From the IMG/VR virus record IMGVR_UViG_3300009605_000113, positions 1-27,159 of that record: a DNA stretch of 27,159 nt. One strand, written 5' to 3'. Below the pieces are notes generated by a model. The model saw only the letters and a program-made list of their open reading frames with translations, was not told the origin of the DNA and did not search any database. Source of the DNA: a virus. Numbering within the stretch: position 1 is the stretch's first letter; each line of letters opens with the position of its first letter. Position numbers and translations under genes: made by a program. Below, piece by piece: positions 11,735 to 25,812 of the stretch.

Positions 11735-11739
11735 TGTCC

Positions 11740-12231: not shown

Positions 12232-12233
12232 CT

Positions 12234-12968: not shown

Positions 12969-13854
12969 GATTGTTCTCCTTTAGTTCTGTGTGTCTCTGC
13001 TCAAGGACTCTGAATGAGTCTTTAGTTACAGCCCCTACGCACAGGTCGAAGTAGGGGCAGCGTCCTCTGTTAAGGCAAGACTGTGTGCTGCGTATGGGGG
13101 TAGCTCCGTTGCGTATCTGAAGGATGCGCTCGTGCGTTGCCCACGCTTGCTTAGTCCAGCCGTCTAGTTGTTCATCTGTTCTCTCAACAACGGTGTCAAA
13201 GAAGTAGTGATCGGGTCGCTGGATGTAGTCTTCTTTCAGCCGTTCGATGTACTCCTTAAGATCCTCCGTCTTCTTCTGTCGAATCGTGGGCTTCTTCACC
13301 ACCCGGTAGACCATCTTCCTGACAGGCACACCGTAGAGCTGACTCGCTGCCCACATGTACGTGCTGACTTGAAAGTCAATCTCAAGCCTCTGCATGTAGT
13401 CATTGCTAACCTGAGCTGCCGTCTTCCACTCGCCTATAAGAACCTCGACACCACCTCCGATGTCGGTCCACACACCGTCGATGACTCCCTGCAGAACATG
13501 CTTCCTGCTAGGTCGCCCGGTCTTCGGGTTGCGGAGAGGGACCCTAAAGCCAACCTCGTGCTTGTCAGGCCAGTCGGTCCACTTGGCTAGGGCACCCTCA
13601 ACCATCGCTACAACAGTTGCCTCTCGCACCATCGCAGCGGGCCCCTCAAAGATGCTCCACATGGGGTCAGGCCCACGCAGTTCATTCAGAGCAGCGTCCA
13701 CACTTTGGTGCTCGATCCCAGCATGGAAGGCAGAGCCCATCCGTAACGCTGGGTGTTCCTGAAACGGAACAAGCAACTCGTTGTAACGAAGGTTGTGTCG
13801 TTCCTCACACCGGCTAAAGGTGACCTGTTCAGACTGAGTGATAGCCTCCTTCAT
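12952..13854 (-). CDS. PD-(D/E)XK exonuclease with candidate Fe-S cysteines (RecB/Cas4-like)
   Basis: Encodes 300 residues. It starts MKEAITQSEQVTFSRCEERH; the R-C-E-E-R region corresponds to the N-terminal part of RecB-family nucleases. Nuclease motifs: GVIDGVW (D126), LIGEWKT (E142, K144) and downstream Q162 (IDFQVSTY). Cysteines at 16, 260, 266 and 272 (SCLNRGRCPYFDLCVGA) follow the one-plus-three pattern of Fe-S nucleases such as Cas4 and AddB. It would resect double-strand ends for the Sak4-like and SSB proteins. The ATG overlaps the HTH stop (ATGA). No cas genes are nearby, so a CRISPR role is not supported. Confidence 0.87.
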   Translation of the reverse strand: MKEAITQSEQVTFSRCEERHNLRYNELLVPFQEHPALRMGSAFHAGIEHQSVDAALNELRGPDPMWSIFEGPAAMVREATVVAMVEGALAKWTDWPDKHEVGFRVPLRNPKTGRPSRKHVLQGVIDGVWTDIGGGVEVLIGEWKTAAQVSNDYMQRLEIDFQVSTYMWAASQLYGVPVRKMVYRVVKKPTIRQKKTEDLKEYIERLKEDYIQRPDHYFFDTVVERTDEQLDGWTKQAWATHERILQIRNGATPIRSTQSCLNRGRCPYFDLCVGAVTKDSFRVLEQRHTELKENNHGPTS

Positions 13855-14210
13855 TCCTTACCCCGAAAGGCAGCGTGCGAGGAAGTCATCCGCTCAAATA
13901 TCTCTGTGTCGCGAGAGGATGGTATCCCCCGTGCCCGTCGAATGCTGCTCACGTTTTGCCTGGAGCAGCCAAGCTTCTCGGCTAGCTCTGCGTCAGGAAC
14001 CTTCCCAAGTAAGTCCCACTCAGGACCAAGCTCCTTCTTACTTCGCGGCTTTCCCTTCTGCGCCCCAGGTCTTCGTATCTTTGTTCTCTCTGCAAGGTAA
14101 CGGGTGATGGTTGCCCTGGTTAACCCATACCTCTCAGCCAAACACGCAAGACTGTCACCAGACCTGTATCCTGCAACGCACTGAACCATCTGCTTCTTCG
14201 TAAGTTTCAT
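13851..14210 (-). CDS. Helix-turn-helix protein with two HTH segments
   Basis: Encodes 119 residues. Residues about 18-42 (DSLACLAERYGLTRATITRY) form one HTH. Residues about 71-97 (VPDAELAEKLGCSRQNVSSI) form a second, joined by a basic linker (RRPGAQKGKPRSKKE). The layout resembles small phage regulators and resolvase-type C-terminal HTHs. It is first in the recombination operon, behind a promoter at 14241-14268 and palindrome 14270-14291, so autoregulation or binding to the repeated palindromes is a reasonable hypothesis. Confidence 0.8.
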   Translation of the reverse strand: MKLTKKQMVQCVAGYRSGDSLACLAERYGLTRATITRYLAERTKIRRPGAQKGKPRSKKELGPEWDLLGKVPDAELAEKLGCSRQNVSSIRRARGIPSSRDTEIFERMTSSHAAFRGKE

Positions 14211-14240
14211 GTCTTCTCCTGTGCCTGTGACCCCGCTGAC

Positions 14241-14268
14241 AATATCACGAGGCCACAGGCGTTGGCAA
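14241..14268 (-). promoter_or_regulatory. Promoter of the recombination operon
   Basis: Minus strand: -35 TTGCCA (14268-14263), 16-base spacer, -10 GATATT (14246-14241), then GTCAGC. The shared TGTCAGC-type element links it to the promoters at 16352, 19464 and 22998. The -35 lies one base from palindrome 14270-14291. Confidence 0.6.
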
Positions 14269-14269
14269 T

Positions 14270-14291
14270 GTTTAACAGCTAAGAGTTAAAC
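14270..14291. promoter_or_regulatory. Class A palindrome 1 (GTTTAAC-N8-GTTAAAC)
   Basis: Perfect 7-bp arms with spacer agctaaga. It contains the TAA stop of the DUF932 gene (14286-14288) and abuts the -35 of the recombination promoter, a position suited to a repressor or activator. Confidence 0.65.
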
Positions 14292-15263
14292 GAGTTCACG
14301 AAGGACGTTTGTGCTGCGTCGAACGAAGTCAGCACCGGAGCCCATCATCAGAGACTCGAAGCGCTGGTTGCCTCGTGTCTGACGGTGGTAGCCAGCGAAC
14401 TCAGTGACCGCATTGTATGCACCCCACGCCGTACCCTGGACACCAGGGATGCGCGCCCCTCTACCGTCGAAGTAGAGGGAGGTCAGGGTGCTGCGGTTCT
14501 TCTCAGCAATAGACATCGCTCGCTTGCTGAAGTCACCGTTCTCGTCAACCACAGGGTTGGGGAACAGGGTGTGACAGAAGTCCATCCACTTGCTCGCAGG
14601 CATCGTTGTCCCTGCAAGCCCTCGCATGAAGTCATCAGACTCTTCAAACGCCTTGCGCCCAAGGCCAAGGACGCGACGAGCCTCGCCAACCTTAAGAACC
14701 ATGTTCTTAGTGTGTCGGATGCTGATGCCCTCTCCCTTTGGGTTGCTCAGTGCAGCGCGAGCAGTGTTCGCGCAGACAACTCGGATGGTGACCCAGAGAC
14801 AACGCAGCGCCGTCTTCCCGTCGTGCCCGCTGTAGATGAAGAGGTAGTGGTCTACCCTATCTCCAGGGACAATCTCGGAAGAGCCAACTTTGCCAAGGAA
14901 CCAAACCTTCTGCCCCCCACGCAGGGAGCCGGCGGTGTGGATGCGAAGTGACCCATCCTCCACTAGCTCATCAGCGAACTGAGCGATGTCCAGGTTTTGG
15001 AAGAGGTGGTAGTCCTTCCCAGCCAGCCCAAGGATTGCTTTGTTGTCGCTGCGGACGATAGCCCGGTAGTCAGGCAGCTCAATCTCTGGCTCACTCCAGT
15101 CGAGGTGGGGTTGAGTGAAGACCTTGTGCTTCTCAACGGTCCAGTCAAGGCCCGCCATCTGGTAGGCAATCTCGGTGGTAACAGGCTCATCCCCCACGTA
15201 CTTTCCAAGTCCGTGCCAAGGGGTTGCTCCTACGTACATCATGGTATCGAGTTCGTGTGCCAT
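14286..15263 (-). CDS. DUF932 phage/plasmid-like protein
   Basis: Encodes 325 residues. The N-terminus (MAHELDTMMYVGATPWHGLG) and later blocks (DYHLFQNLD, TAGSLRGGQKVWFLG, VCANTARAAL, RGTAWGAYNAVTEF in varied form) match the DUF932 family (TIGR03299), common in phages, plasmids and integrative elements and of unknown biochemical role. Length is normal for the family. Ribosome site: AGGAGTAAGAC before ATG. Its stop lies inside palindrome 14270-14291. It may act in replication or recombination, since it lies directly upstream of that operon. Confidence 0.9.
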   Translation of the reverse strand: MAHELDTMMYVGATPWHGLGKYVGDEPVTTEIAYQMAGLDWTVEKHKVFTQPHLDWSEPEIELPDYRAIVRSDNKAILGLAGKDYHLFQNLDIAQFADELVEDGSLRIHTAGSLRGGQKVWFLGKVGSSEIVPGDRVDHYLFIYSGHDGKTALRCLWVTIRVVCANTARAALSNPKGEGISIRHTKNMVLKVGEARRVLGLGRKAFEESDDFMRGLAGTTMPASKWMDFCHTLFPNPVVDENGDFSKRAMSIAEKNRSTLTSLYFDGRGARIPGVQGTAWGAYNAVTEFAGYHRQTRGNQRFESLMMGSGADFVRRSTNVLRELV

Positions 15264-15272
15264 GTCTTACTC

Positions 15273-15701
15273 CTAGTTTTGTGGTTGGTTGGTGGTGAAG
15301 GGAGCTGTGCTGACAACATTGTCGGCAACAGCAGGTTCCTCAGTAGACACTGAGGTAGGGACAGGTTCTGTCCTGGGTAGGATCCCAGCGTTGGTCAGCG
15401 CTGATACGAACTGATTGATTGCGATGAGTGCTAGGTGTTCCTTCTTAGCGGTCCGAACGATGTTCATCAGCTTCTCTACGTCCTCTTCGTTGTCCGGGTC
15501 TATGTCTGCAACGAACCTGAGGCCGCTTCGGATGTCGCTATAGGCACAGAGCTGTGCCCTCACATCTTCCGGGTCGCCAAACTGCTCCTCTATACCTAGC
15601 CAGCCGGCGAGGTTTTCAGGTATTTGATCCAACATATCTTTGGCAGAGTTGAGCTGGTCTATAGCTCCCTCAAGTTCGTAGTTAATGTCGTTAATATCCA
15701 T
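15273..15701 (-). CDS. Hypothetical acidic protein with P/T-rich tail
   Basis: Encodes 142 residues. Leader CCAACCAACAAGGAGTAAGAC precedes ATG. It starts MDINDINYELEGAIDQLNSA; the body is acidic and helical. The last 35 residues are rich in P, T, V and S (TEPVPTSVSTEEP) and end TTNQPQN, encoded by the leader of the next gene. A domain plus flexible tail is likely. Family not recognised. Confidence 0.74.
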   Translation of the reverse strand: MDINDINYELEGAIDQLNSAKDMLDQIPENLAGWLGIEEQFGDPEDVRAQLCAYSDIRSGLRFVADIDPDNEEDVEKLMNIVRTAKKEHLALIAINQFVSALTNAGILPRTEPVPTSVSTEEPAVADNVVSTAPFTTNQPQN

Positions 15702-15704
15702 GTC

Positions 15705-16286
15705 TTACTCCTTGTTGGTTGGTTGGTAGAGGTGGAACGTTTGGGTCAGGGGGTTCTCTGACCCGTCTTCGTAGAGGTCCACGAGGACACTCCCGGCTGC
15801 GGGGTGGGCACAGGCCACACGGGCCTCGTCGATGTCCCCATCCGCTCCGTCGCCAGAGAGATAGGAACCGTCAACCGAATAGACCGTAGCCTGGACAGCG
15901 CGGTTCCCTTCGGACCAGCTGGAGGTCCACTCAGAGGCTCCATTGCGGGCAAGAAAGTCCTCCAGTTGTTCGCGTAAAGTCATGCCTTGCTCCTTGTTGT
16001 TTGCTGTCTCTGACAGAAGAACATTCCTGTCGAGGACATCTTTGAATGTGTTTGCGGTTAGCTCCCCACGCAGGGCGCTACCTTGAGAATGAGCGGCCCA
16101 GACGTAGGCCAGTTCCTCAGCAAGCCGGAAGAACTCATCCAGCTGCTTAAGACCGTGCCCCTCAAAGGCAGGCTCTACCTCTCTCCACTCCGCTGTAGCC
16201 CTGTGAGCCTTAAGCGCAAACTTAGTAAGCTCTGCAAGGTGCGCTTGAAGCTGCCATGTGATTGTCTCTAGTTCTCTCAATTCCAT
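15705..16286 (-). CDS. Hypothetical protein, probable fusion of two genes across a start cassette
   Basis: Encodes 193 residues. The first 100 are helical (starting MELRELETITWQLQAHLAEL). Then ETANNKEQGM is encoded by a start cassette: AACAAGGAGCAAGGCATG at 15998-15981. The usual cassette is AACAAGGAGTAAGACATG with an in-frame TAA, so a T-to-C change seems to have removed a stop and fused two genes. The second part (from M102, nt 15983) is a compact acidic beta-rich protein with its own ribosome site, so a separate 92-residue product is likely. It ends YQPTNKE, from the next cassette. Promoter 16352-16380 lies upstream. Confidence 0.7.
   Translation of the reverse strand: MELRELETITWQLQAHLAELTKFALKAHRATAEWREVEPAFEGHGLKQLDEFFRLAEELAYVWAAHSQGSALRGELTANTFKDVLDRNVLLSETANNKEQGMTLREQLEDFLARNGASEWTSSWSEGNRAVQATVYSVDGSYLSGDGADGDIDEARVACAHPAAGSVLVDLYEDGSENPLTQTFHLYQPTNKE
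15981..15998 (-). promoter_or_regulatory. Internal ribosome site and start within a fused frame
   Basis: Minus-strand AACAAGGAGCAAGGCATG, equal to the cassette before 15701 except for two bases. AAGGAG is 6 bases from the ATG at 15983, predicting internal initiation. Confidence 0.6.
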
Positions 16287-16304
16287 GTCGTCTCCTGGTT
16301 GGGG

Positions 16305-16324
16305 TTTAACTCTCGCCTGTTAAA
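16305..16324. promoter_or_regulatory. Class A palindrome 2 (TTTAAC-N8-GTTAAA)
   Basis: Spacer tctcgcct. It lies between promoter 16352-16380 and the start at 16286, about 20 bases past the expected transcription start, where a bound protein could block elongation. Confidence 0.65.
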
Positions 16325-16351
16325 ACAACCTCTAACAAGCTGACACAATAG

Positions 16352-16380
16352 ACTATAGCTATGCTGTTCTGCGTTGTCAA
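16352..16380 (-). promoter_or_regulatory. Strong sigma70-like promoter
   Basis: Minus strand: -35 TTGACA (16380-16375, consensus), 17-base spacer, -10 TATAGT (16357-16352). It is followed by CTATTGTGTCAGC, the element shared with the other leftward promoters. It drives the gene starting at 16286. Confidence 0.78.
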
Positions 16381-16386
16381 AGCTAC

Positions 16387-16608
16387 CTACTTTCTTTGGA
16401 TCCAGCGCACAAACTTTCCTGAGCACGGCTCACACAGCACCCCTCCTGTGAGGGTGGTGGTGACTTTGAACTTGTGTACCTGTGCGACGTTCGCGGTATC
16501 TGACCCTGCCTTGAACTGCTTGCCGCACTTAAGGCAGCAGACGCTATCCAGACAGGCTTCTAAGAACTTATCTACGCCTTTGGACACGATGATGTCTCTG
16601 TCTCTCAT
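16387..16608 (-). CDS. Zinc-ribbon-like small protein
   Basis: Encodes 73 residues. Cysteines 25 and 28 (CCLKCGKQF) and 59 and 62 (LCEPCSGKF) make a two-CxxC ribbon separated by about 30 residues, followed by a basic FVRWIQRK end. The ATG overlaps the stop of the tiny membrane peptide (ATGA). A nucleic-acid- or protein-binding role is likely; family unknown. Confidence 0.75.
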   Translation of the reverse strand: MRDRDIIVSKGVDKFLEACLDSVCCLKCGKQFKAGSDTANVAQVHKFKVTTTLTGGVLCEPCSGKFVRWIQRK

Positions 16609-16670
16609 GGCAGGCTCCCTGCGAGGGCACCGAGAAGGACGATGATGGATGTGTATGCGACTAAGAACAT
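16605..16670 (-). CDS. Tiny membrane peptide, 21 residues
   Basis: ATG at 16670 follows CACACAGGAGAAAAC, the same leader style as neighbouring genes. The product is MFLVAYTSIIVLLGALAGSL plus P, a single hydrophobic helix. It overlaps the preceding gene's end by 10 bases and the next start as ATGA. Conserved leader and coupled overlap support translation. It could be a membrane-acting microprotein or only a coupling ORF. Confidence 0.5.
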   Translation of the reverse strand: MFLVAYTSIIVLLGALAGSLP

Positions 16671-16885
16671 GTTTTCTCCTGTGTGATTAGGTTGGTTAGT
16701 TGGTTAACAAGCCGGCTAGTTCCGAACCTTAAGATCAGTTCAGAGAGGAGGTCTTCTAGTAGGCCCTGTGTGTCTATCTCGTTTACTAGATCGTCTAGCT
16801 TTGCTGAGACGTAAGTGTTCTCTGAACTGAGAGTCAGCTCTCTAGTCTCCTCATAGTTATAGATGTCTACATACTCTGAACTCAT
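16661..16885 (-). CDS. Small acidic hypothetical protein
   Basis: Encodes 74 residues from the ATG at 16885, preceded by CAGGAGAACAGC; a start at 16924 would lie within the upstream palindrome. It starts MSSEYVDIYNYEETRELTL, is acidic and helical (LLEDLLSELILRF), and ends ITQEKTCS where the next gene's ribosome site is read as codons. Function unknown. Confidence 0.7.
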   Translation of the reverse strand: MSSEYVDIYNYEETRELTLSSENTYVSAKLDDLVNEIDTQGLLEDLLSELILRFGTSRLVNQLTNLITQEKTCS

Positions 16886-16904
16886 GCTGTTCTCCTGATG
16901 TCTA

Positions 16905-16928
16905 GTCTTTGTTTTTATTAACAAAGAC
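16905..16928. promoter_or_regulatory. Palindrome GTCTTTGTT-N6-AACAAAGAC
   Basis: Nine perfect pairs around tttatt, 20 bases upstream of the start at 16885. It occupies the place used by class A and B palindromes at other genes but has a different sequence. Confidence 0.55.
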
Positions 16929-16949
16929 GTTCTAGGTTCTAGGTTCTAG
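16929..16949. repeat. Tandem heptamer (GTTCTAG) x3
   Basis: Three exact copies, followed by TTCTATGAACC. It adjoins the palindrome 16905-16928 in the 150-base gap between the 17075 and 16885 genes. CTAG-rich strings recur at 26590-26650. Confidence 0.75.
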
Positions 16950-17074
16950 TTCTATGAACCATATAGTAATGGAGCCACCTCCTTTCTCTCTGAGTGAAAC
17001 CTACTGAGAGCCTCGTGCTTGCTCTCTACAGGCGATGCCTATGCCTCGACACCTAGTCAGGCGTAGAATCCATT

Positions 17075-17245
17075 CTAGGTATCTTCTTGCTCGTCTAGTA
17101 GCTCAGCTGGTCCTCCGCATTCAGGGCACCTAGTAGCTCCCTTCTCTGGCTCCCACCTGTAGTCACACTCAAAGCAGATAGCGCTGCCTGTCTCTTCCTG
17201 AGGTGGGAGTGCAGCTGGGCACAGTGCTGATTCAATCGGTGTCAT
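17075..17245 (-). CDS. Zinc-ribbon protein, 56 residues
   Basis: ATG at 17245 follows AACACACAACACAAGGAGACTGAAC, matching the leaders of other genes in this block. Cysteines 24 and 27 (CFECDYRW) and 40 and 43 (RCPECGGPAELL) form a classic rubredoxin/zinc-ribbon knuckle pair 16 residues apart. It ends TAG at 17075. A small DNA-, RNA- or protein-binding adaptor is likely. Confidence 0.78.
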   Translation of the reverse strand: MTPIESALCPAALPPQEETGSAICFECDYRWEPEKGATRCPECGGPAELLDEQEDT

Positions 17246-17274
17246 GTTCAGTCTCCTTGTGTTGTGTGTTGGTT

Positions 17275-17292
17275 TTAACTTCTAAGGGTTAA
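17275..17292. promoter_or_regulatory. Class A palindrome 3 (TTAAC-N8-GTTAA)
   Basis: Spacer ttctaagg. It begins 3 bases past the stop of the 17296 gene and precedes the ACACA leader of the 17245 gene. Confidence 0.6.
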
Positions 17293-17295
17293 GAG

Positions 17296-17634
17296 TTACT
17301 CGCTCTCCTTTTCGCTACGCAAAGCCTCCTTCTTTAAGAGCTTGTCGAACTCGCTCTCGCTCATGCTTGAGGCGTTTGTCCATAGCCCGATGTGAGCCTT
17401 GGCTGAGTCAAGGATCTCGCTCTGGTTTGCGGGCCAGCCGCGTGCCACGTTGAGCTGTGACATGCGAGAGGCGAACTCTCTGTAGTTTTCCTTTGTGATC
17501 TTGTTCATGCCGACTGACATAGCCCCCCAGATAAGACGGTCTGTAGACACCCTCATCTGCTGGTCATTGCCCTCGCCATAGAAGCAAACGGTTTCGTAGT
17601 CAGTTACCTCTGATAGATTCCAATTAAGACTCAT
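17296..17634 (-). CDS. Hypothetical protein, 112 residues
   Basis: Leader AACAAGGAGTAACAC precedes ATG, which overlaps the upstream stop (ATGA). It starts MSLNWNLSEVTDYETVCFYG and ends KKEALRSEKESE. A mixed, mostly helical and charged protein with no recognisable domain. Its stop lies 3 bases from palindrome 17275-17292. Confidence 0.74.
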   Translation of the reverse strand: MSLNWNLSEVTDYETVCFYGEGNDQQMRVSTDRLIWGAMSVGMNKITKENYREFASRMSQLNVARGWPANQSEILDSAKAHIGLWTNASSMSESEFDKLLKKEALRSEKESE

Positions 17635-17966
17635 GTGTTACTCCTTGTTTGGTAGTAGGTTTCGCACTTCTTACAGCTACGCTTGCCGGGAACTGCGTCG
17701 GCATATCCGCAGTCGCAGCAGGTATCCGCTAGGTCTGGGCAAGACTCGCCGCGTGCCTCTAGCCAAGCCCTTGCTTGGTCAGCGCGGGAGGCCCACGCAG
17801 CAAGCTCTCTCTCGCCCCCGCCACAGCACCAGTCACAACCGCTAAGGTTTACTCGCATCCAGGCGCACTCCGCTAGCGCGGAGGCATGCTCTCTGCGAGC
17901 TTCCTCGACGCTGCGGGGGGCGACCACGGGGCCAGGGTCTTCCTCTGGATATTCTAGGTAGCTCAT
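17631..17966 (-). CDS. Cysteine-rich hypothetical protein
   Basis: Encodes 111 residues. The start lies in a type II junction cassette. Cysteine clusters: GCDWCCGGG (44-48), TCCDCGYA (83-86) and SCKKCETYY (98-101). The last two probably form a C-terminal zinc ribbon. The middle is helical and alanine-rich (ERELAAWASRADQARAWLEA). The terminal YQTRSNT is the start cassette of the next gene read in another frame. Function unknown. Confidence 0.76.
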   Translation of the reverse strand: MSYLEYPEEDPGPVVAPRSVEEARREHASALAECAWMRVNLSGCDWCCGGGERELAAWASRADQARAWLEARGESCPDLADTCCDCGYADAVPGKRSCKKCETYYQTRSNT

Positions 17967-17977
17967 GCTTCCTCCTT
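17961..17977 (-). repeat. Junction cassette type II, copy 1
   Basis: Minus-strand AAGGAGGAAGCATGAGC: ribosome site, upstream stop (protein ending KEEA) and downstream ATG (protein starting MS). Confidence 0.88.
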
Positions 17978-18202
17978 GATGCTCACTAGCTCCACTTTCC
18001 AGTCAAGCCCAGCCCACCTCAGCCAGCCCTCAGGGGTGTCGTCGGTCGGCCTGTTGTTGGTAGCAAATAGGGCGCAGGCGATCTCGCTAGCCGGAACTCC
18101 AGCGGAGGAGAGCGCATAAGCGGCCTGTCGAGCGTCCTCTAGGCTGAACGTCGCGTAGTCAGGGCCGACAATCCCGTGCCACGGTGTGTGTTCCTTGCTC
18201 AT
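17963..18202 (-). CDS. Hypothetical protein ending in KEEA
   Basis: Encodes 79 residues. It starts MSKEHTPWHGIVGPDYATFS, then a helical segment (LEDARQAAYALSSAGV) and GWLRWAGLDWKVELVSIKEEA. Junction cassettes lie at both ends, so the whole gene is a cassette-bounded unit. No domain recognised. Confidence 0.74.
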   Translation of the reverse strand: MSKEHTPWHGIVGPDYATFSLEDARQAAYALSSAGVPASEIACALFATNNRPTDDTPEGWLRWAGLDWKVELVSIKEEA

Positions 18203-18213
18203 GCTTCCTCCTT
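18197..18213 (-). repeat. Junction cassette type II, copy 2
   Basis: Minus-strand AAGGAGGAAGCATGAGC between the 18199-18405 and 17963-18202 genes. Confidence 0.88.
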
Positions 18214-18405
18214 CAGGAACTTTTCATCCATGTTTGTGAGAGCGTTAAAGGCGTCAGCTATTGCTTGTGCTGCATCCATGGAGAAGGTGTAAGCGATTGG
18301 GTTTTCCCCTCTCCATGAGGTTGCGATGACAACGTGAGTGACGGGGCCTCTGGTTGTCTCCAGGGTGGTGAACGCGGTGGCGCGCGCTGTGTACGTGTAG
18401 CTCAT
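18199..18405 (-). CDS. Small hypothetical protein ending in KEEA
   Basis: Encodes 68 residues from the ATG at 18405, which overlaps the upstream stop (ATGA) after AACAGGAGAAGAC; a start at 18435 has no ribosome site. It starts MSYTYTARATAFTTLETTRG. The first half looks beta-rich (VTHVVIATSW), then a helix (MDAAQAIADAFNAL) and KFLKEEA. Function unknown. Confidence 0.74.
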   Translation of the reverse strand: MSYTYTARATAFTTLETTRGPVTHVVIATSWRGENPIAYTFSMDAAQAIADAFNALTNMDEKFLKEEA

Positions 18406-18581
18406 GTCTTCTCCTGTTCGTCCTTGCACTCGCAAGGAACTTCATCTGTGTAAGGTTCACCGCAATCGCGGCAGAAAACGCAGCCTTCGCATACGCCTGT
18501 GTCTGTCCAGCCATGCCACCCGCACAGGTCACACCCTGCGTAGATGTAACCAAGCTCGTCTGACCTGTCTGAGCCTCTCAC
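18402..18581 (-). CDS. Cysteine-rich protein, paralog of the 19118-19405 product
   Basis: Encodes 59 residues from the GTG at 18581, preceded by CGGAGTAAGAG and overlapping the upstream stop (GTGA). Eight cysteines (17, 20, 31, 34, 37, 40, 50, 52) have exactly the spacing of the first eight in the 95-residue protein at 19118-19405. Shared text includes CD-x-C-x5-WT-x-TG-x-CE-x-CV-x-C. Two zinc sites are likely. It ends DEQEKT before the ATGA start of the next gene. It is a duplicate lacking the second protein's C-terminal extension. Confidence 0.78.
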   Translation of the reverse strand: MRGSDRSDELGYIYAGCDLCGWHGWTDTGVCEGCVFCRDCGEPYTDEVPCECKDEQEKT

Positions 18582-18781
18582 CTCTTACTCCGTGTTGCAC
18601 TCTCAAGGATTGAGAGGGCGTTGCTGATTGCCTTTAGCGCATTCATGGTGGTTGGCCGGCGAAGTTGAGTCGCCAGCGCGAGTTCTGAGTGGGCTTCGAG
18701 TAGCTCAGAGCGAGCTGACCGTATAGCCACGGTTAGGTAGGTTTCTCTTTGGGTTTCTTTGCCTGTGAGTATGTTGCTCAT
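18578..18781 (-). CDS. Small helical hypothetical protein
   Basis: Encodes 67 residues, starting in a type II cassette. It starts MSNILTGKETQRETYLTVAI, continues as amphipathic helices (RSARSELLEAHSELALATQL) and ends SATRSKR, where RSKR is the next start region read in a shifted frame. No domain recognised. Confidence 0.72.
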   Translation of the reverse strand: MSNILTGKETQRETYLTVAIRSARSELLEAHSELALATQLRRPTTMNALKAISNALSILESATRSKR

Positions 18782-18792
18782 GCTTCCTCCTT
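18776..18792 (-). repeat. Junction cassette type II, copy 3
   Basis: Minus-strand AAGGAGGAAGCATGAGC. With copy 1 the identity extends upstream through GCATC, giving 22 matching bases. Confidence 0.88.
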
Positions 18793-18966
18793 GATGCGCT
18801 CGCCTACCATCTTGTCAATCTCCTGCACATGCCTATCAGCCCAGCCAATCTGGTCCTTTAGCAGTGAGTAGAGGGCACGTATCTCAGCGTGCATAGATGC
18901 AGCAAGGTTGCTGTCTAGTGCGTGGAAAGGGACGGGGGGTTTCTCGGTGTGCCTGTAGTTACTCAT
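18778..18966 (-). CDS. Small helical hypothetical protein ending in KEEA
   Basis: Encodes 62 residues from the ATG at 18966, which overlaps the stop of the two-TM protein (ATGA) and follows AACAGGAGAAGAGGC; an upstream start at 19038 lies inside that gene. It starts MSNYRHTEKPPVPFHALDSN, and the rest is helical (LYSLLKDQIGWADRHVQEID). It ends GERIKEEA. Confidence 0.72.
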   Translation of the reverse strand: MSNYRHTEKPPVPFHALDSNLAASMHAEIRALYSLLKDQIGWADRHVQEIDKMVGERIKEEA

Positions 18967-19130
18967 GCCTCTTCTCCTGTTTGTGTTGCAGCAACGAGGA
19001 CGATCAGGCCCAAGCCACTTAGGTTGATGAGCCAGCACCAGTTGCTAGCCTCAGGTGTGTGCTCTGCTCCAGCTAAGAGAAGTCCAAGGACTATCCCGGC
19101 TGCAGCCAATAGGTTTCTTATGCTGGGCAT
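18963..19130 (-). CDS. Small two-TM membrane protein, 55 residues
   Basis: ATG at 19130 overlaps the preceding gene by 13 bases. TM1 is about residues 5-21 (RNLLAAAGIVLGLLLAG), then a polar loop (AEHTPEASNW), then TM2 about 33-48 (WLINLSGLGLIVLVAA), and the end TQTGEEA. The end carries the GEEA and ATGA junction found at neighbours, which supports translation. An inner-membrane protein of unknown role; superinfection exclusion and antiholin roles are only guesses. Confidence 0.62.
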   Translation of the reverse strand: MPSIRNLLAAAGIVLGLLLAGAEHTPEASNWCWLINLSGLGLIVLVAATQTGEEA

Positions 19131-19405
19131 CTTGGACACCACCCTTCTCCGTTGCCGTCAGACCCCCACCGGAGCCCGGTGTTTAGACAGGTGCCGCAAG
19201 GATTGTTCTCGCCACCTTCTGTAGTAGATTCCTCTGGCTCTCCGCAGTTGCAGGCAGGCTCTTCAAGCCAGGGAACCTCGCAAGTAACGCAGTAGACGCA
19301 TCGCTCACACATGCCTGTCTCTGTCCAGGCTGTGTAGTTGCATACGTCACAGCGGACGAGAGTGTGATCGCTGTCGGCTGAGAACCTAACTGTCTTCCAA
19401 CTCAT
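19118..19405 (-). CDS. Cysteine-rich protein with 12 cysteines
   Basis: Encodes 95 residues. ATG follows CACAGGAGGCACAGC. Cysteines lie at 19, 22, 33, 36, 39, 42, 52 and 54, then 70, 73, 90 and 93. The first eight match the 59-residue paralog at 18402-18581 in spacing. The last four (CGTCLNTGLRWG, CPRCPA) form an extra zinc ribbon like DnaJ-type CxxCxGxG units. Three zinc sites are plausible. It is first in an operon behind promoter 19464-19492. Function unknown. Confidence 0.8.
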   Translation of the reverse strand: MSWKTVRFSADSDHTLVRCDVCNYTAWTETGMCERCVYCVTCEVPWLEEPACNCGEPEESTTEGGENNPCGTCLNTGLRWGSDGNGEGWCPRCPA

Positions 19406-19463
19406 GCTGTGCCTCCTGTGTTGGTTGTTGGTTAACTTAAAGTGTGTCTCGCTGACACCATAT

Positions 19464-19492
19464 ACAGTAGCGACTTAGCATTTACCCGTCAA
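19464..19492 (-). promoter_or_regulatory. Promoter of the cysteine-rich/small-gene operon
   Basis: Minus strand: -35 TTGACG (19492-19487), 17-base spacer, weak -10 TACTGT (19469-19464), then ATATGGTGTCAGC. The last eight bases (GTGTCAGC) are identical to promoter 16352. The AAGTTAACC sequence downstream resembles a class A half-site. Confidence 0.58.
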
Positions 19493-19514
19493 GGTGTATC
19501 TGCTTAAGGCGTAG

Positions 19515-19961
19515 CTACTGAGAAGACAGGGCGTGCTCGCCCCAGAAAGCCTTGGCCTCAGCCTTTTCCTCGTCGTTCATGCTCTTGTCCCAGGGCTCAC
19601 GCGGCGCAACCACCTGAGATCCATACGCCGTGTAGATGAGAGGCTCATCCCCAGGGGACTCGCCGGGGCCAGCGATGAGGACCATCTCTCGGCACGGGCG
19701 AGGCTCCCTGCTGACAAGGCGAGAGGGGCCAGCTCGGTTGGCTCTGGTGACGTACTCAACCTCATCCTCAGCGATGGGGTCGTCCCCTGCTGAAGGGCCA
19801 TGCAGGTCTGACAGCAGAGGGGGGCAGTCCTCTGGCATCGTGGCGTGAAGCCGGGTGAAGCTGCCATCCCAGCCACTGAGCAGGGTGTCAATGAACTGAA
19901 GGTGCCTCTGCTTCAGTCCGTGGTCGTCGTGAAAGAAGGCGATTCCGTTTGGTGTTTCCAT
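19515..19961 (-). CDS. Conserved-type phage hypothetical protein with YTAYG / APREP motif
   Basis: Encodes 148 residues. It starts METPNGIAFFHDDHGLKQRH. The C-terminal part, LIYTAYGSQVVAPREPWD then AKAFWGEHALSSQ, matches from memory a motif in many uncharacterised phage and bacterial proteins. No catalytic residues can be named. Ribosome site AAGGAGTAAGAC precedes ATG. It is last in its transcription unit before promoter 19464. Confidence 0.78.
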   Translation of the reverse strand: METPNGIAFFHDDHGLKQRHLQFIDTLLSGWDGSFTRLHATMPEDCPPLLSDLHGPSAGDDPIAEDEVEYVTRANRAGPSRLVSREPRPCREMVLIAGPGESPGDEPLIYTAYGSQVVAPREPWDKSMNDEEKAEAKAFWGEHALSSQ

Positions 19962-19964
19962 GTC

Positions 19965-20579
19965 TTACTCCTTGGTTGGTTCGTTGTACTGAATCTGAGC
20001 ATCAATGAGGGCGAGGGTGGCTTGCTTAAACGCAACCTCATGCTCTTCGGCGTAGCAATATGTGGTGTAGGAACGCTCTACGAGCTTTCTGAGCATAGGG
20101 AGGCTCCCATCCCCGAAGCAGGCTATGGACCCCACAAATTCAAGCCACTTCTTGTATGCGCTGGCGACTTCTACCTCGCTGCAAGTTGGAATCCTGTATC
20201 CAACCCACCGAGAATCGACTGGTCTTCCGGCTTCATGGTTGCTAACAGCTAAGAACTCGTCAGGGGCGACAGCTTTCCACCTTTTGATAGCCTCCCTGTT
20301 GGCTTCAAAGGAGGAGTTTTCCCCATAAGGCCCCTCGCTGGGGTACATGCCAGAGGCGAGCCTCCTGACCGTGTTATTAACACTGCCAGAGCAGTATTCG
20401 TGGTCCTCGGGTCCGTCAACATTAGCGAATGAGACAGAATGGGGACCGTCCCTGTATAGGGCTTTGTTGTGAATACCCAGGTCCCACTTCCTCCCTCTGG
20501 AATCTGTGAACGGGCCAAGGTGAAGGCAGTATGTCCAGATGTGGTGATCTTTTCCGTGATGAAATTCATTGTCGAGCAT
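19965..20579 (-). CDS. Hypothetical protein, 204 residues
   Basis: Leader CAGGAGATAGAC precedes ATG. It starts MLDNEFHHGKDHHIWTYCLH and is rich in H, W and Y in its first half (GRKWDLGIHNKALYRDGPHS). A helical C-terminus follows (KKWLEFVGSIACFGDG, FKQATLALIDAQIQY). It ends NEPTKE, from the next gene's start cassette. The histidine pattern could bind metal, but no family was recognised. Confidence 0.75.
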   Translation of the reverse strand: MLDNEFHHGKDHHIWTYCLHLGPFTDSRGRKWDLGIHNKALYRDGPHSVSFANVDGPEDHEYCSGSVNNTVRRLASGMYPSEGPYGENSSFEANREAIKRWKAVAPDEFLAVSNHEAGRPVDSRWVGYRIPTCSEVEVASAYKKWLEFVGSIACFGDGSLPMLRKLVERSYTTYCYAEEHEVAFKQATLALIDAQIQYNEPTKE

Positions 20580-20604
20580 GTCTATCTCCTGTTGAAGGTA
20601 ATAG

Positions 20605-21462
20605 TTAATTGTTAATGACCTGAAGGCGTGGCTTGAAGTGCTTCTTTCCTGAGCCGTGGACGATTAGCGTTGGGTTGCCTGCAAGTCTCTTGTCGTTGGG
20701 GTTGCCGTTGCAGGCTCCGCATCGATCACACGTAAGCCGCTTGCCCTCTTCAGCACTCGCGGGACACGAGAACTCTCCCTCTAGGATGGGTTCGCCCTCA
20801 GCCCTGCCACGGAAGGTGCGCCAGCCTAGCTCGCGTGCCTCCCAATACTCAGCCTCAGTGTCAACAGACGCCATCAGGTAGGGGCGCAGCTGTGGGTTGC
20901 CTCTCCACTGGTGCGTGTAGCCTGTGCTCTTGTCGTCACCGATGAGCTGAGTCCATACACTGAGCGGCACCGCAGACGGGTCACCGTAGCTACCGCACCG
21001 ACGCATCCTGTCGCCCATTAGATCCCATGCCCTGGGGTAGTCATCGATGTGTGCGTAGCCGCCTCTCTTGAAGCACTTCCACACGCTGGCAGGCGCATCC
21101 ATCCGTACGTAGCAGCTACGGTCTGGCTGCTTGCGTCCCTTGCGAATCGTCAAGACTTGTGGCCGGTGGATGCAATCACCGCAGATTGATACGTCTGCTC
21201 CTGTCTTAAGTGCTTCGCTTGGGTGCATGGATACGAGCAAGATCCAAACCTGGATCTCATCGCCTGTCTTGTCGTTGTCGCTGGACTTGGTGAGCCCTGT
21301 AGCAATCACCACAATCTCAACGCCATCGATGAGGGAGGGACCTTGCCAGAGGATCACACCGTTGCGGTTGATACCTAGCTTGCGCTTGCGCTTGGTGGTG
21401 AGCTTGGTGACACGGAAGCCCGCATCCTCAAGCGCAGCCCGTGCCTGCAGTAAGTCGTACAT
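20605..21462 (-). CDS. Conserved phage/plasmid protein with Cys motifs and YGDPxAVP block
   Basis: Encodes 285 residues. Landmarks: CGDCIHRP (94-101), CYV (117), YGDPSAVPLSVW (159-170), TGYTHQWR (180-187), MASVDTEAE (197-205), GWRTFRGRAEG (213-223) and a C-terminal CDRCGACNG (245-253). I recognise this arrangement from a family of uncharacterised phage and plasmid proteins. At least nine cysteines suggest bound zinc or iron. Leader AACACACAAC and CAGGAGAAAAC precede ATG. Function is not known. Confidence 0.82.
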   Translation of the reverse strand: MYDLLQARAALEDAGFRVTKLTTKRKRKLGINRNGVILWQGPSLIDGVEIVVIATGLTKSSDNDKTGDEIQVWILLVSMHPSEALKTGADVSICGDCIHRPQVLTIRKGRKQPDRSCYVRMDAPASVWKCFKRGGYAHIDDYPRAWDLMGDRMRRCGSYGDPSAVPLSVWTQLIGDDKSTGYTHQWRGNPQLRPYLMASVDTEAEYWEARELGWRTFRGRAEGEPILEGEFSCPASAEEGKRLTCDRCGACNGNPNDKRLAGNPTLIVHGSGKKHFKPRLQVINN

Positions 21463-21498
21463 GTTTTCTCCTGATTAGAGTGTGTGAGGGTTGTGTGT

Positions 21499-21518
21499 TT
21501 TAACTTGGCTACGTTAAA
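21499..21518. promoter_or_regulatory. Class A palindrome 4 (TTTAAC-N8-GTTAAA)
   Basis: Spacer ttggctac. It lies 8 bases past the stop of the 21527 gene and is followed (leftward) by the AACACACAAC leader of the 21462 gene. Confidence 0.68.
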
Positions 21519-21526
21519 GGATTGGC

Positions 21527-21664
21527 CTAGCTCTCTTCCTCCATCCAGTGAGTTCCACCGCCGTACTTCTCATTCATTTCCTTGCAAGTATCGCGTGCCT
21601 CCACGTAACTGATTGGCGTGCCATGCCCACACTTGCCGTTGATTTTCCAGTGAACTATCCACAT
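21527..21664 (-). CDS. Small hypothetical protein, 45 residues
   Basis: ATG at 21664 follows CAACAACTAGGAGCAGAC, a leader shared with neighbouring genes. It starts MWIVHWKINGKCGHGTPISY and ends GGTHWMEEES. It could be a single small beta-alpha domain. The reading frame fills the gap exactly and ends 8 bases before a class A palindrome, supporting a real gene. Confidence 0.66.
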   Translation of the reverse strand: MWIVHWKINGKCGHGTPISYVEARDTCKEMNEKYGGGTHWMEEES

Positions 21665-21672
21665 GTCTGCTC

Positions 21673-21729
21673 CTAGTTGTTGGTGAGTGCCGCCGCTGCG
21701 ACGACGAAGGTTGCTGCGATAAGACTCAT
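21673..21729 (-). CDS. Tiny membrane peptide, 18 residues
   Basis: ATG at 21729 lies in a type II-like junction (GGAGGAAGCATGAG). The product is MSLIAATFVVAAAALTNN, one hydrophobic segment. Its TAG is inside the ribosome-site leader of the next gene. The strong site argues that it is translated; it may act in the membrane or only couple its neighbours. Confidence 0.48.
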   Translation of the reverse strand: MSLIAATFVVAAAALTNN

Positions 21730-21740
21730 GCTTCCTCCGA
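21724..21740 (-). repeat. Junction cassette type II, copy 4 (diverged)
   Basis: Minus-strand TCGGAGGAAGCATGAGT, 14 of 17 bases as in the other copies. The upstream protein ends SEEA. Confidence 0.78.
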
Positions 21741-22052
21741 GGTTGCGTTGTTGATTGCCTTTGCTGCTATGCCCCTCATCCGGTCGAAGTCGGCCTTGAT
21801 GTCCTCAACTGGCGTGTCCTCGTCGTAAGCATGGTGGAGGATGCTGTCGAGGGCAGTCAGCAACTCATCCCGCTGCTTCTTTGTCTCAGGCGCAGCGACG
21901 ATGAGTTCAGCGTTGGCTTCTGTGTAGGCGTCAGCTATTCGCTCTACTTCGTAACCCTCATCGCCCGGTATGTTCGCCTTATAGATTGCGATATGGGGCA
22001 CCTCGGCGCTCGAAGCATCGTGGCGGTCCCACGGTCCAGGTGTATGTCTCAT
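21726..22052 (-). CDS. HTPGPW-type phage hypothetical protein
   Basis: Encodes 108 residues. The N-terminus MRHTPGPWDRHD and the core TEANAELIVAAPETKKQRDE match a widespread family of small phage proteins (HTPGPW ... ANAxLIAAAPxLL). Their function is unknown. Leader: class A palindrome, AACACACAAC, then GGAGAGACAAC before ATG. It ends in the SEEA junction. Confidence 0.85.
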   Translation of the reverse strand: MRHTPGPWDRHDASSAEVPHIAIYKANIPGDEGYEVERIADAYTEANAELIVAAPETKKQRDELLTALDSILHHAYDEDTPVEDIKADFDRMRGIAAKAINNATSEEA

Positions 22053-22094
22053 GTTGTCTCTCCTTCCGGGCGGTTAGCCCTCTCTGTTGTGTGT

Positions 22095-22114
22095 TTTAAC
22101 TTGCTGCTGTTAAT
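22095..22114. promoter_or_regulatory. Class A palindrome 5 (TTAAC-N8-GTTAA)
   Basis: Spacer ttgctgct. The stop codon of the 22110 gene (22110-22112) is in the right arm. Confidence 0.65.
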
Positions 22115-22355
22115 CGAAGGTGGGTGTGAAGTGTCGTTCGGTGTAGATGTAAAAGGCTCCCGTCCAGAATTCCTCACGGTCCTCGGGGTCCGCGTGTAGG
22201 GATTCTTTGTAGTCGTGGGGGTGGTACTCGATGATGTGATCGATAGCCTCTTGACCGAAGCCTCGGGAGGAGTCAGTCCGCGTGGACAGCCACTCCCCGC
22301 AAAGGGAGCATGCGAGGATCCGAAGCTGGGTTTTTGGATTGATCTTGAGTCTCAT
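22110..22355 (-). CDS. C2H2-like zinc-finger small protein
   Basis: Encodes 81 residues. C16 and C19 (ACSLCGEW) and H40 and H45 (AIDHIIEYHPH) give a C-x2-C-x20-H-x4-H pattern. The basic N-terminus (MRLKINPKTQLR) could contact nucleic acid. Ribosome site GGAGAGACAAC as at the 22052 gene. The stop lies inside palindrome 22095-22114. Confidence 0.76.
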   Translation of the reverse strand: MRLKINPKTQLRILACSLCGEWLSTRTDSSRGFGQEAIDHIIEYHPHDYKESLHADPEDREEFWTGAFYIYTERHFTPTFD

Positions 22356-22377
22356 GTTGTCTCTCCTGTGTGAGTTG

Positions 22378-22395
22378 TTTATTCAGAGGAATAAA
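22378..22395. promoter_or_regulatory. Class B palindrome 1 (TTTATTC-N4-GAATAAA)
   Basis: Spacer AGAG. It lies between the stop at 22422 and the ribosome site of the 22355 gene. Confidence 0.66.
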
Positions 22396-22421
22396 TAAGG
22401 TTGCCGGGTTCGGGTGTGTTG

Positions 22422-22700
22422 TTAGTTCTGTCCCCAGCCAGATCGGACGGTGAAGGTGTCAACCACCTCCCCGTAGCAGACCTGCCCCCGCTCATCGGTG
22501 CGGCGGTTGCCCTCATAGATACGGGCCGAAGTACATGCTCCGCCGCTCTCTAATACGGCAGCCTCAGCCTCTCTCTTAATCTGCCCAAGACTGCCTCCGC
22601 TCCATTCGCTGGGGCTGGGGAATCCGGCTCTCATGCGCCCGCTCTGGCTGGGGCCGAAGAGGCACACGGTAAATGCGGCCCGGTCGTTCGTGTCTTCCAT
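22422..22700 (-). CDS. Hypothetical protein, 92 residues
   Basis: It starts MEDTNDRAAFTVCLFGPSQS and continues with FPSPSEWSGGSLGQIKREAE, a helix, then RIYEGNRRTDERGQVCYGEV, a hairpin-like basic stretch. The ATG follows a GC-rich hairpin (CCCGG/CCGGG, about 22717-22735) and GCAGGAGGATTGAGGGT. No family recognised. Confidence 0.73.
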   Translation of the reverse strand: MEDTNDRAAFTVCLFGPSQSGRMRAGFPSPSEWSGGSLGQIKREAEAAVLESGGACTSARIYEGNRRTDERGQVCYGEVVDTFTVRSGWGQN

Positions 22701-22746
22701 ACCCTCAATCCTCCTGCCCGGGTTACCCGCCGGGTCGGGGTTGGGA

Positions 22747-22764
22747 TTAACTCCTAGAAGTTAA
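22747..22764. promoter_or_regulatory. Class A palindrome 6 (TTAAC-N8-GTTAA)
   Basis: Spacer tcctagaa contains the TAG stop (22754-22756) of the 22754 gene. Confidence 0.65.
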
Positions 22765-22957
22765 CGGGTCGAAACTCAAAGGTGAGGTGTGCGTTGCTGG
22801 CATGCGCGAGGTCTACCCGCTCAAGCTGTTCTTTCTCCTTGGTGGTGAATATCGTGGCCCGTATCAGGTTGCCCACGATTGTTCCATTGGACCAGTCAAC
22901 CGCACCGAAGCGCTTGTCGCCGGGTGCCTTGCAGTAAAGTCGGTATGCCTTGCTCAT
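22754..22957 (-). CDS. Small hypothetical protein, 67 residues
   Basis: It starts MSKAYRLYCKAPGDKRFGAV, then FTTKEKEQLERVDLAHASN and HLTFEFRPVNF. The pattern beta-beta-helix-beta suggests a compact domain. It is the first gene after promoter 22998-23026. Leader CACACAACAGGAGAAACAGGCTA precedes ATG. The last residues fall within palindrome 22747-22764. Confidence 0.74.
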   Translation of the reverse strand: MSKAYRLYCKAPGDKRFGAVDWSNGTIVGNLIRATIFTTKEKEQLERVDLAHASNAHLTFEFRPVNF

Positions 22958-22997
22958 TAGCCTGTTTCTCCTGTTGTGTGTTAGCTGTCACAATATC

Positions 22998-23026
22998 AAT
23001 ATAGGTCGTGCTTGTTTCCTTGGCAA
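22998..23026 (-). promoter_or_regulatory. Sigma70-like leftward promoter
   Basis: Minus strand: -35 TTGCCA (23026-23021), 17-base spacer, -10 TATATT (23003-22998), then GATATTGTGACAGC, a near match to the TGTCAGC element of the other promoters. It drives the 22957 gene and probably the genes after it. Confidence 0.75.
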
Positions 23027-23044
23027 CTCTTTTTTGCATAAGGT

Positions 23045-23064
23045 TTTAACTTGAGTGAGTTAAA
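23045..23064. promoter_or_regulatory. Class A palindrome 7 (TTTAAC-N8-GTTAAA)
   Basis: Spacer ttgagtga. It lies 2 bases past the stop at 23067 and 18 bases upstream of the -35 of promoter 22998-23026. Confidence 0.68.
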
Positions 23065-23066
23065 GG

Positions 23067-23408
23067 TCAGCCCCAGACAACCTCCTGTTGTGTGTCACGG
23101 GAATAGCGCAGCACTTCGCGCAGCTTGTCGATGCGCTTGTGTGTTCCACCGTATGCCGGGGGAAAGGTAGCTTCGGTCAGCTTGTCAGCCTCATTAGGAG
23201 AGAGGCTCCCGCACAGGTCGTCGTCGGTAGGCAGCCCCATAGCTCGGAGCACGAGGCATGCGTTTCTGTTTGAGAAGTTAACTTCGGGCGCAGTGCTTTC
23301 CTCTCGGAAGCCGGTGCATCCATACTTGGTGCCGCACCATCCCTTCTCGCAGTACTCACAAGGTACGGTTCTCCGGGCGGCGGAGGGGATCCAAAACGTT
23401 ACAGACAT
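23067..23408 (-). CDS. Protein with N-terminal four-cysteine motif
   Basis: Encodes 113 residues. It starts MSVTFWIPSAARRTVPCEYC. Cysteines 17, 20, 25 and 31 (PCEYCEKGWC, YGCTG) form a probable zinc site. Then comes NRNACLVLRAMGLP, an acidic stretch and a helical C-terminus (KRIDKLREVLRYSRDTQQ). Leader: class B palindrome, ACACACAGGAGAAACACG, ATG. Family not recognised. Confidence 0.76.
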   Translation of the reverse strand: MSVTFWIPSAARRTVPCEYCEKGWCGTKYGCTGFREESTAPEVNFSNRNACLVLRAMGLPTDDDLCGSLSPNEADKLTEATFPPAYGGTHKRIDKLREVLRYSRDTQQEVVWG

Positions 23409-23433
23409 CGTGTTTCTCCTGTGTGTTAGTGAG

Positions 23434-23457
23434 TTATTTATTCGGCTGAATAAATAA
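23434..23457. promoter_or_regulatory. Class B palindrome 2, 10-bp arms
   Basis: TTATTTATTC-GGCT-GAATAAATAA, a perfect palindrome 11 bases past the stop at 23468 and upstream of the 23408 gene. Confidence 0.72.
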
Positions 23458-23467
23458 GGGTAAAGGG

Positions 23468-23779
23468 TTATGGAGACTCAATGTATGCCTTGTGTGCGTC
23501 GAGGGCAGAGCACATCCATTCAAGTTGACCAATGAGAGGGTAGAGCCCACGACCCCTCGCCTTCAGTTGTCGTCCGAGAATCTGAGCACCCCTCCCGTAG
23601 TCTCCGTTCTCAATCCAACGGATGCGTTTAGCCACTAGCTCAGGCTGAAGGTGTAGGGCTAGAGAGAACTCATCCTTGCGTTCAGCCCTGATGTGAGCGG
23701 GCTCGTGTGAGTGGGCGGCGAGTTCTCGGTTTGTCCTGGCGAGTTCTTGCCTGTCGTATTTTTCTTCGCTGAATGCCAT
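23468..23779 (-). CDS. Hypothetical basic helical protein
   Basis: Encodes 103 residues. It starts MAFSEEKYDRQELARTNREL, with DEFSLALHLQPELVAKRI, GDYGRGAQILGRQLKARGRG and LEWMCSALDAHKAYIESP. Mostly helical with clusters of R and K. Ribosome site CAGGAGAAACGAC. The gap upstream (AACCCTTAACAACAC) holds a loose class A half-site. Function unknown. Confidence 0.74.
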   Translation of the reverse strand: MAFSEEKYDRQELARTNRELAAHSHEPAHIRAERKDEFSLALHLQPELVAKRIRWIENGDYGRGAQILGRQLKARGRGLYPLIGQLEWMCSALDAHKAYIESP

Positions 23780-23797
23780 GTCGTTTCTCCTGTGTTG

Positions 23798-24043
23798 TTA
23801 AGGGTTAATCAGATCGTCCACAGAGAAGAAGTGTGACGGCCCGCATCCTTGGTCCTCTCGCACTAGCGCCTCGCTGCCTGGAGAGGACAGCCAAGGGCGA
23901 CTACCTCGCGATATTAGGATTGAGATTCCCTTGCGTGCCGCCTCTAGTGGCGTGTCAGCCTCGATCACCAGCCCCATTTTGCTGCCGGTAAGCGTGCCCC
24001 TGTTGTGGCTAAAGCACTGCTCCATTCGATAAAGTCTGCTCAT
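23798..24043 (-). CDS. Hypothetical protein, 81 residues
   Basis: It starts MSRLYRMEQCFSHNRGTLTG, with VIEADTPLEAARKGISILIS. A beta strand followed by 'EADTPLEAARKG' resembles the small phage fold in which a strand is followed by an A-rich helix. It ends SVDDLINP. Leader ACACACAACAGGAGAAATC precedes ATG. Confidence 0.74.
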   Translation of the reverse strand: MSRLYRMEQCFSHNRGTLTGSKMGLVIEADTPLEAARKGISILISRGSRPWLSSPGSEALVREDQGCGPSHFFSVDDLINP

Positions 24044-24077
24044 GATTTCTCCTGTTGTGTGTCTAAGGCTGAGTTGT

Positions 24078-24097
24078 TTTTACTCAGTCAAGTTAAA
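24078..24097. promoter_or_regulatory. Class A palindrome 8, degenerate (TTTTAC-N8-GTTAAA)
   Basis: Spacer tcagtcaa; one uncompensated arm change. It contains the TAA (24080-24082) of the 19-residue peptide gene. Confidence 0.55.
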
Positions 24098-24139
24098 GGG
24101 TTCGGGTCGCCATTCGTTGTGGTGCCGTTCTTCGTCCAT
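24080..24139 (-). CDS. Tiny peptide, 19 residues
   Basis: ATG at 24139 follows ACTCAGGAGAATCAGC, an excellent ribosome site in the local leader style. The product is MDEERHHNEWRPEPFNLTE, acidic and polar, with its last five codons inside palindrome 24078-24097. It is bounded by class A palindromes on both sides. It may be real or a leader peptide for the gene at 24043. Confidence 0.45.
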   Translation of the reverse strand: MDEERHHNEWRPEPFNLTE

Positions 24140-24163
24140 GCTGATTCTCCTGAGTGAGTGGGT

Positions 24164-24183
24164 TTTAGCTTGAGTGAGTTAAG
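24164..24183. promoter_or_regulatory. Class A palindrome 9, degenerate (TTTAGC-N8-GTTAAG)
   Basis: Spacer ttgagtga, the same as in palindrome 7. It lies 2 bases past the stop at 24186. On the leftward transcript two of six pairs would be C/A mismatches, which argues for a DNA rather than an RNA role. Confidence 0.55.
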
Positions 24184-24785: not shown

Positions 24786-24809
24786 TTATTTATTTATCGG
24801 AATAAATAA
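24786..24809. promoter_or_regulatory. Class B palindrome 3
   Basis: TTATTTATT-TATCGG-AATAAATAA; in the class B register this is TTTATTT-ATCG-GAATAAA with one arm change. It lies directly upstream of the 24770 ribosome site. Confidence 0.66.
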
Positions 24810-25764: not shown

Positions 25765-25777
25765 GGTTTCTAGCTCC

Positions 25778-25799
25778 TATTTATTCGCTGGAATAAATA
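25778..25799. promoter_or_regulatory. Class B palindrome 4, abutting the ribosome site of the first leftward gene
   Basis: TATTTATTC-GCTG-GAATAAATA, perfect 9-bp arms. On the leftward RNA the AGGAG site follows at once. An alternative stem CTGGA (25788-25792) with TCCAG (25800-25804) excludes it. Confidence 0.66.
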
Positions 25800-25812
25800 T
25801 CCAGCTGTGAAA

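Follow-up and report, generated by a model that had tools for sequence, protein, structure and literature searches.

Several phages carry repeated short elements between genes. The extended start-associated sequences (ESAS) of cluster K mycobacteriophages are 17-bp imperfect inverted repeats, spaced mostly by 4-13 bp, that lie next to a start-associated sequence (SAS) and include SigA-like promoter hexamers (PMC3203893, PMC11373665); the role of the repeats is still called unclear, repressor binding has been proposed, and an RNA hairpin was not supported (PMC3203893, PMC11373665, PMC12699233). Stoperators of cluster A phages, including L5 and TipsytheTRex, are 13-bp asymmetric sites that are oriented with transcription and affect elongation, and their regulator holds two DNA-binding domains in one chain (PMC9283540). 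In Bacillus phage SPbeta, a repeated intergenic 15-bp motif in prophage promoter regions (SPBRE) is bound by the master repressor MrpR (PMC10516654).

Here we describe a multi-copy palindrome from a marine phage that resembles L5 stoperators and especially ESAS in layout, and is a member of neither family. The phiC31 repressor, which binds conserved inverted repeats, is a further precedent. ESAS give the best layout match of the known systems: in both cases multi-copy inverted repeats lie in the non-structural half, in gaps just upstream of translation starts, and the repeat consensus diverges at specific positions, between subclusters in ESAS and between relatives here. The phage palindrome differs, however, in its 6-bp arms, its fixed N8 spacer and its sequence, and it overlaps no promoter-like hexamer. 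The SAS sequence GGGATAGGAGCCC, searched with up to 2 mismatches, gave 4 matches, none directly before a called start of the leftward gene block. With stoperators the likeness is one of logic, in that many sites genome-wide would serve one regulator, and the candidate here might also be two-domain; the sites in this phage are nevertheless palindromic and their regulator is putative. Using GGTGGMTGTCAAG, which we take to be the L5 stoperator core, we counted 3 matches with up to 2 mismatches against 1.30 expected, which is no enrichment. SPBRE shares the repeated intergenic element, whereas the sites described here lie mostly between cistrons in a phage without a detected integrase. A preliminary description of this DNA had proposed a stoperator- or ESAS-like logic with a different sequence and geometry, and indeed neither system matches in sequence or geometry.

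Nine palindromes with a fixed spacer

The window, the whole stretch analyzed, is a complete IMG/VR record of 27,159 bases and represents a phage fragment in which structural genes run rightward to ~9 kb and small genes leftward from 25.8 to 9.1 kb. The palindromes sit among these small early genes. A search of phages gave no near DNA match to the window among cultured relatives, and Caulobacter phage S2B, a distant protein relative, has no palindrome family of such kind; the gene at 24889-25764 had no relatives in the bacterial genomes searched. An 18.1 kb contig, IMG/VR 3300008218_000104, compared with window 1-18000, apparently belongs to the same phage, with its sites offset by ~20 bases. 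The palindrome, which we term family A, spans 20 bases (TTTAAC-N8-GTTAAA) and has nine junction sites in the window, listed here with one candidate binder:

Site 1, 14271..14290, TTTAACAGCTAAGAGTTAAA: includes the DUF932 gene stop; 2 bp separate its end from the -35 in the promoter of the tandem-HTH gene
Site 2, 16305..16324, TTTAACTCTCGCCTGTTAAA: a -10 hexamer lies ~28 bp upstream; the start codon at 16286 follows after 18 nt
Site 3, 17274..17293, TTTAACTTCTAAGGGTTAAG: within a 74-bp patch with 96% identity to a junction of the relative G006
Site 4, 21499..21518, TTTAACTTGGCTACGTTAAA: start of gene 20605-21462 follows after 36 nt
Site 5, 22095..22114, TTTAACTTGCTGCTGTTAAT: includes the stop of gene 22110-22355
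Site 6, 22746..22765, ATTAACTCCTAGAAGTTAAC: includes the stop of gene 22754-22957
Site 7, 23045..23064, TTTAACTTGAGTGAGTTAAA: adjoins the stop of gene 23067-23408; a -35 follows after ~18 bp
Site 8, 24078..24097, TTTTACTCAGTCAAGTTAAA: includes the stop of a 19-codon ORF
Site 9, 24164..24183, TTTAGCTTGAGTGAGTTAAG: adjoins the stop of gene 24186-24770
13851..14210, minus strand: tandem helix-turn-helix (tandem-HTH) protein, 119 aa, candidate binder only

All nine sites listed in the preliminary description were present, three of them shifted by one base (14271, 17274 and 22746). Four have exact arms, three have one arm mismatch (17274, 22095 and 24078) and two have two (22746 and 24164); across the window copies the arms are constant and the spacer sequence is variable. 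The comparison of genes, gaps and shuffled sequence that had been suggested as a check gave 11 matches with up to 2 mismatches, against 0.34 expected from dinucleotide shuffles (largest count 2), with nine in gaps and two, at 2809 and 12772, within coding sequence; these last two look like chance matches. Restricted to the 2225 bp of leftward gene junctions, the count was 9, versus 0.060 expected when the same junctions were shuffled. The leftward block holds all nine sites and the structural-gene gaps none; sites occur in 8 of 20 junctions of at least 20 bp (one or more in each) and in no junction below 20 bp. When we scanned spacers of 0 to 20 with up to one mismatch, N8 gave 8 matches and every other length gave 0, in line with the invariant 8-base spacer described before.

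Placement relative to stop codons, Shine-Dalgarno sequences and promoters

The sites had been described as placed on stop codons, and the underlying tally was reproduced: in four of the nine the upstream gene's stop falls inside the site (14271, 22095, 22746 and 24078, the last belonging to the 19-codon ORF), four lie within 8 bases after a stop (17274, 21499, 23045 and 24164), and the exception, 16305, lies beside the promoter TTGACA-17-TATAGT. These stop contacts are real, but in promoterless gaps the sites fill the short space from stop to next Shine-Dalgarno sequence, and in the more distant relative L009 it is the distance to the start codon that is tight. Most sites lie inside transcription units with a start codon 12-45 nt on; for several, the next start is at least 45 nt away, beyond a promoter or other element. 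The 19-codon ORF (window 24080-24139) has its own Shine-Dalgarno sequence and lies between two sites. Separately, GC-rich inverted repeats such as CCCGGCGGGTAACCCGGG are found directly 5' of Shine-Dalgarno sequences at window 22711-22740 and 22060-22080, and upstream of the homologue of gene 20605-21462 in G006 and a second relative, G012.

A scan of the leftward block found just three leftward sigma70-like promoters (16380, 23026 and 14268), each within 30 bp of a palindrome:

16352..16380, minus strand: TTGACA-17-TATAGT, near site 2
22998..23026, minus strand: TTGCCA-17-TATATT, near site 7
14239..14268, minus strand: TTGCCA-16-GATATT (or 18-TATTGT), promoter of the tandem-HTH gene, beside site 1

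Promoter-like sites were overall no commoner in the scan than in shuffles, and none of the nine palindromes overlaps a sigma70-like hexamer from it. Six of the nine have no promoter-like hexamers nearby and lie inside operons. Because the hexamers are left uncovered and these six sites are inside operons, we rejected a promoter operator as the general role. We found no intrinsic terminators at the sites.

Related phages and other palindromes in the same slot

Among the proteins of G006 (52.8 kb) are an SU10-like portal and adaptor, a terminase, a major head protein and a DnaB helicase. Pfam detected no integrase and no RNA polymerase among 59 scanned G006 proteins (one very long ORF was left out), and with no integrase a lysogeny-type shut-off is not indicated. 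With the patterns used, G006 has 10 family A copies and G012 has 11, located between stop codon and Shine-Dalgarno sequence, with the sense-strand consensus NNTAACYCYTAGAAGTTAAAAC. In these two genomes conservation is higher in the right half-site (GTTAAAAC) than in the left one, and the spacer bases follow a non-random pattern, YCYTAGAA.

The more distant L009 (63% identity to the window in the DUF932 protein) carries 11 copies of CTCAAC-N8-GTTGAG against 1.06 expected, and a spacer scan at 0 mismatches returned N8 only. Ten of the 11 copies end 12-22 nt before an ATG; between the eleventh and its gene lie TTGACA and TAGAAT hexamers. Compared with family A, the arms are changed at matching positions on both sides while N8 and the slot are kept; the G006/G012 and L009 motifs have in common AAC-N8-GTT and a CNTARA spacer core, and differ in the outer arm positions on both sides. 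Copies in G006, G012 and L009 show a consistent asymmetry of orientation, a few of them being reversed, whereas the window spacers are too variable to judge. Two further loci found by the L009 motif, L049 and L050, were discarded as site carriers, with one chance copy each.

Other palindromes occupy the same slot. Family B (TTATTTATT-N6-AATAAATAA) has 4 copies in the window versus 0 expected, and more in G006 and G012. The window copies are:

22375..22398 (one mismatch), preceding gene 22110-22355
23434..23457 (exact), preceding gene 23067-23408
24786..24809 (exact), preceding gene 24186-24770
25777..25800 (two mismatches), preceding gene 24889-25764

Family C (TTTTAAAAGACCACTTTTAAAA) has two copies in G006, and TTATCAG-N4-CTGATAA is a further palindrome in this position. 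Between relatives, the families replace one another in the same slot: G006 gene 33907-34038 carries C but its apparent counterpart in G012 carries A, and for G006 gene 34501-34683 the element is B in G006 and A-like in G012 (both pairs matched by position and length), while upstream of DUF932 the family C palindrome of G006 gives way to TTATCAGACAGCTGATAA in G004 within near-identical flanks. Tentatively, the space from stop to ribosome-binding site may be a standard position that exchanges palindromes (A, B, C, the L009 type and others), each with its own regulator or all with one structure-sensing factor; we consider this doubtful.

Proposed DNA recognition and a candidate binder

Folded as sense-strand RNA, family A sites average -1.7 to -2.9 kcal/mol per genome versus -4.7 for random local 30-mers, which is not the stable hairpin expected of an RNA element. 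Nor do the arm changes mostly preserve pairing, with 14 A·C against 4 G·U mismatches, counts that are not independent because many copies are related by descent. Since the arms are kept, the spacer varies, folds are weak and A·C exceeds G·U, DNA recognition is favored, and the case for an mRNA hairpin in the TTTAAC family is weak, as the preliminary description had argued. A hairpin just 5' of the Shine-Dalgarno sequence, through which a protein or enzyme would control translation or mRNA processing cistron by cistron, is an unlikely explanation, although the sites do lie in transcribed DNA and in L009 keep their short distance to the ATG (12-22 nt in 10 of 11). The L009 hairpins, moreover, average -8.3 kcal/mol, which is fairly stable, and conserve the loop ACWTAAAC, families B and C form near-perfect hairpins, and the DUF932 slot exchanges TTTTAAAAGACCACTTTTAAAA for TTATCAGACAGCTGATAA between near-identical flanks. 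Against this stand the weak family A folds, the lack of any Rfam match for the sites, and a window pattern of varying loop and constant stem that is the opposite of a typical RNA hairpin. An RNA role may hold for L009, with its better folds, or for families B and C.

A less probable idea is that the sites are cassettes of multi-frame stops between genes, spread with gene modules by recombination and lacking a dedicated binder. In the G006/G012 consensus NNTAACYCYTAGAAGTTAAA each frame has one stop (at +2, +9 and +16), and several of these are used by genes; homology blocks of these two genomes often begin or end at a site, and the window and G006 are 96% identical over the 74-bp patch that contains one. 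Such cassettes would not, however, require symmetry, N8 spacing or the matching arm change in L009, the middle stop is often missing from window spacers, and module breaks at gene ends are expected anyway. Promoters for a phage-modified RNA polymerase, starting transcription just before each gene, are improbable: nearly all G006, G012 and L009 copies share one orientation with respect to the genes, with a conserved, A-rich right flank and start codons close by, but the aligned sites give no -10/-35 pair, a promoter or other element separates several of the sites from a start at least 45 nt away, and no polymerase was found by Pfam in the scanned G006 proteins (less the one very long ORF).

We read the palindromes, with a probability of roughly 0.5, as intercistronic sites for a phage-encoded, sequence-specific DNA-binding protein that most likely brakes RNA polymerase elongation. 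Recognition of the sites by such a protein is supported by the enrichment in window and junctions (11 versus 0.34, 9 versus 0.06), the exclusive N8 spacing, the constant arms and the symmetric arm change in L009. The protein would recognize two symmetric half-sites with the core AAC-N8-GTT, their centers about one helical turn apart. Its occupancy would act inside transcription units, at gene junctions and near the three promoters. The most likely effect is that of a roadblock or brake to RNA polymerase during elongation, through which the many small early genes could be turned down together. By analogy, the closest known logic would be that of stoperators. A dimeric protein acting at many gaps, as first proposed, fits the symmetric site, the fixed geometry and the number of gaps, but the half-site asymmetry and non-random spacer of G006/G012 are not what a purely symmetric dimer would predict. 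A single binder would not account for the presence of families B and C and TTATCAG-N4-CTGATAA in the same slot.

Three HTH proteins had been put forward as binders, and all are putative in this role: 24186-24770 has no relatives in any fetched locus, 9351-9782 was undetected in site-bearing L009, and 13851-14210 occurs in the site-bearing relatives but also in a locus without sites. This tandem-HTH protein has relatives in G006, L012, L042 and L044 and a more distant one in L009 (26%). Because the gene is also present in L057, where 5.5 kb of upstream sequence holds no repeated palindrome, it is a candidate only, and the case for it as sole binder is weakened. Its structure model is moderate (mean pLDDT 74, pTM 0.42), and fold comparison gave weak hits, none better than E 0.046, to the IstA and Mos1 transposases and to the Tc3 and Pax paired domains, from which no family can be assigned. 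Proteins that L009 shares with the window or G006 outside the core replication genes do not resemble regulators. A promoter-linked element like TGATATTGTCAGCGG (or TTGATTGTGTCGGC) lies upstream of the tandem-HTH gene at window 14230-14250 and in L042, L044, L012, L055, L056 and L057, and also upstream of the DUF932 gene in several relatives; it is possibly a start-site operator. An element distinct from the palindromes, like GATATTGTCRGCG at a promoter, recurs upstream of the tandem-HTH gene in several relatives and may be the target of the tandem-HTH protein itself.

The function of phage start-associated inverted repeats has been an open question since their description in 2011. This marine group has an apparently independent set whose geometry is simpler and whose specificity appears to have switched naturally from one relative to another, and one short palindrome in two sequence versions of about ten copies each makes a binding test straightforward. 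If the slot before the ribosome-binding site does exchange palindromes as a module, these phages would have interchangeable gene-by-gene control.
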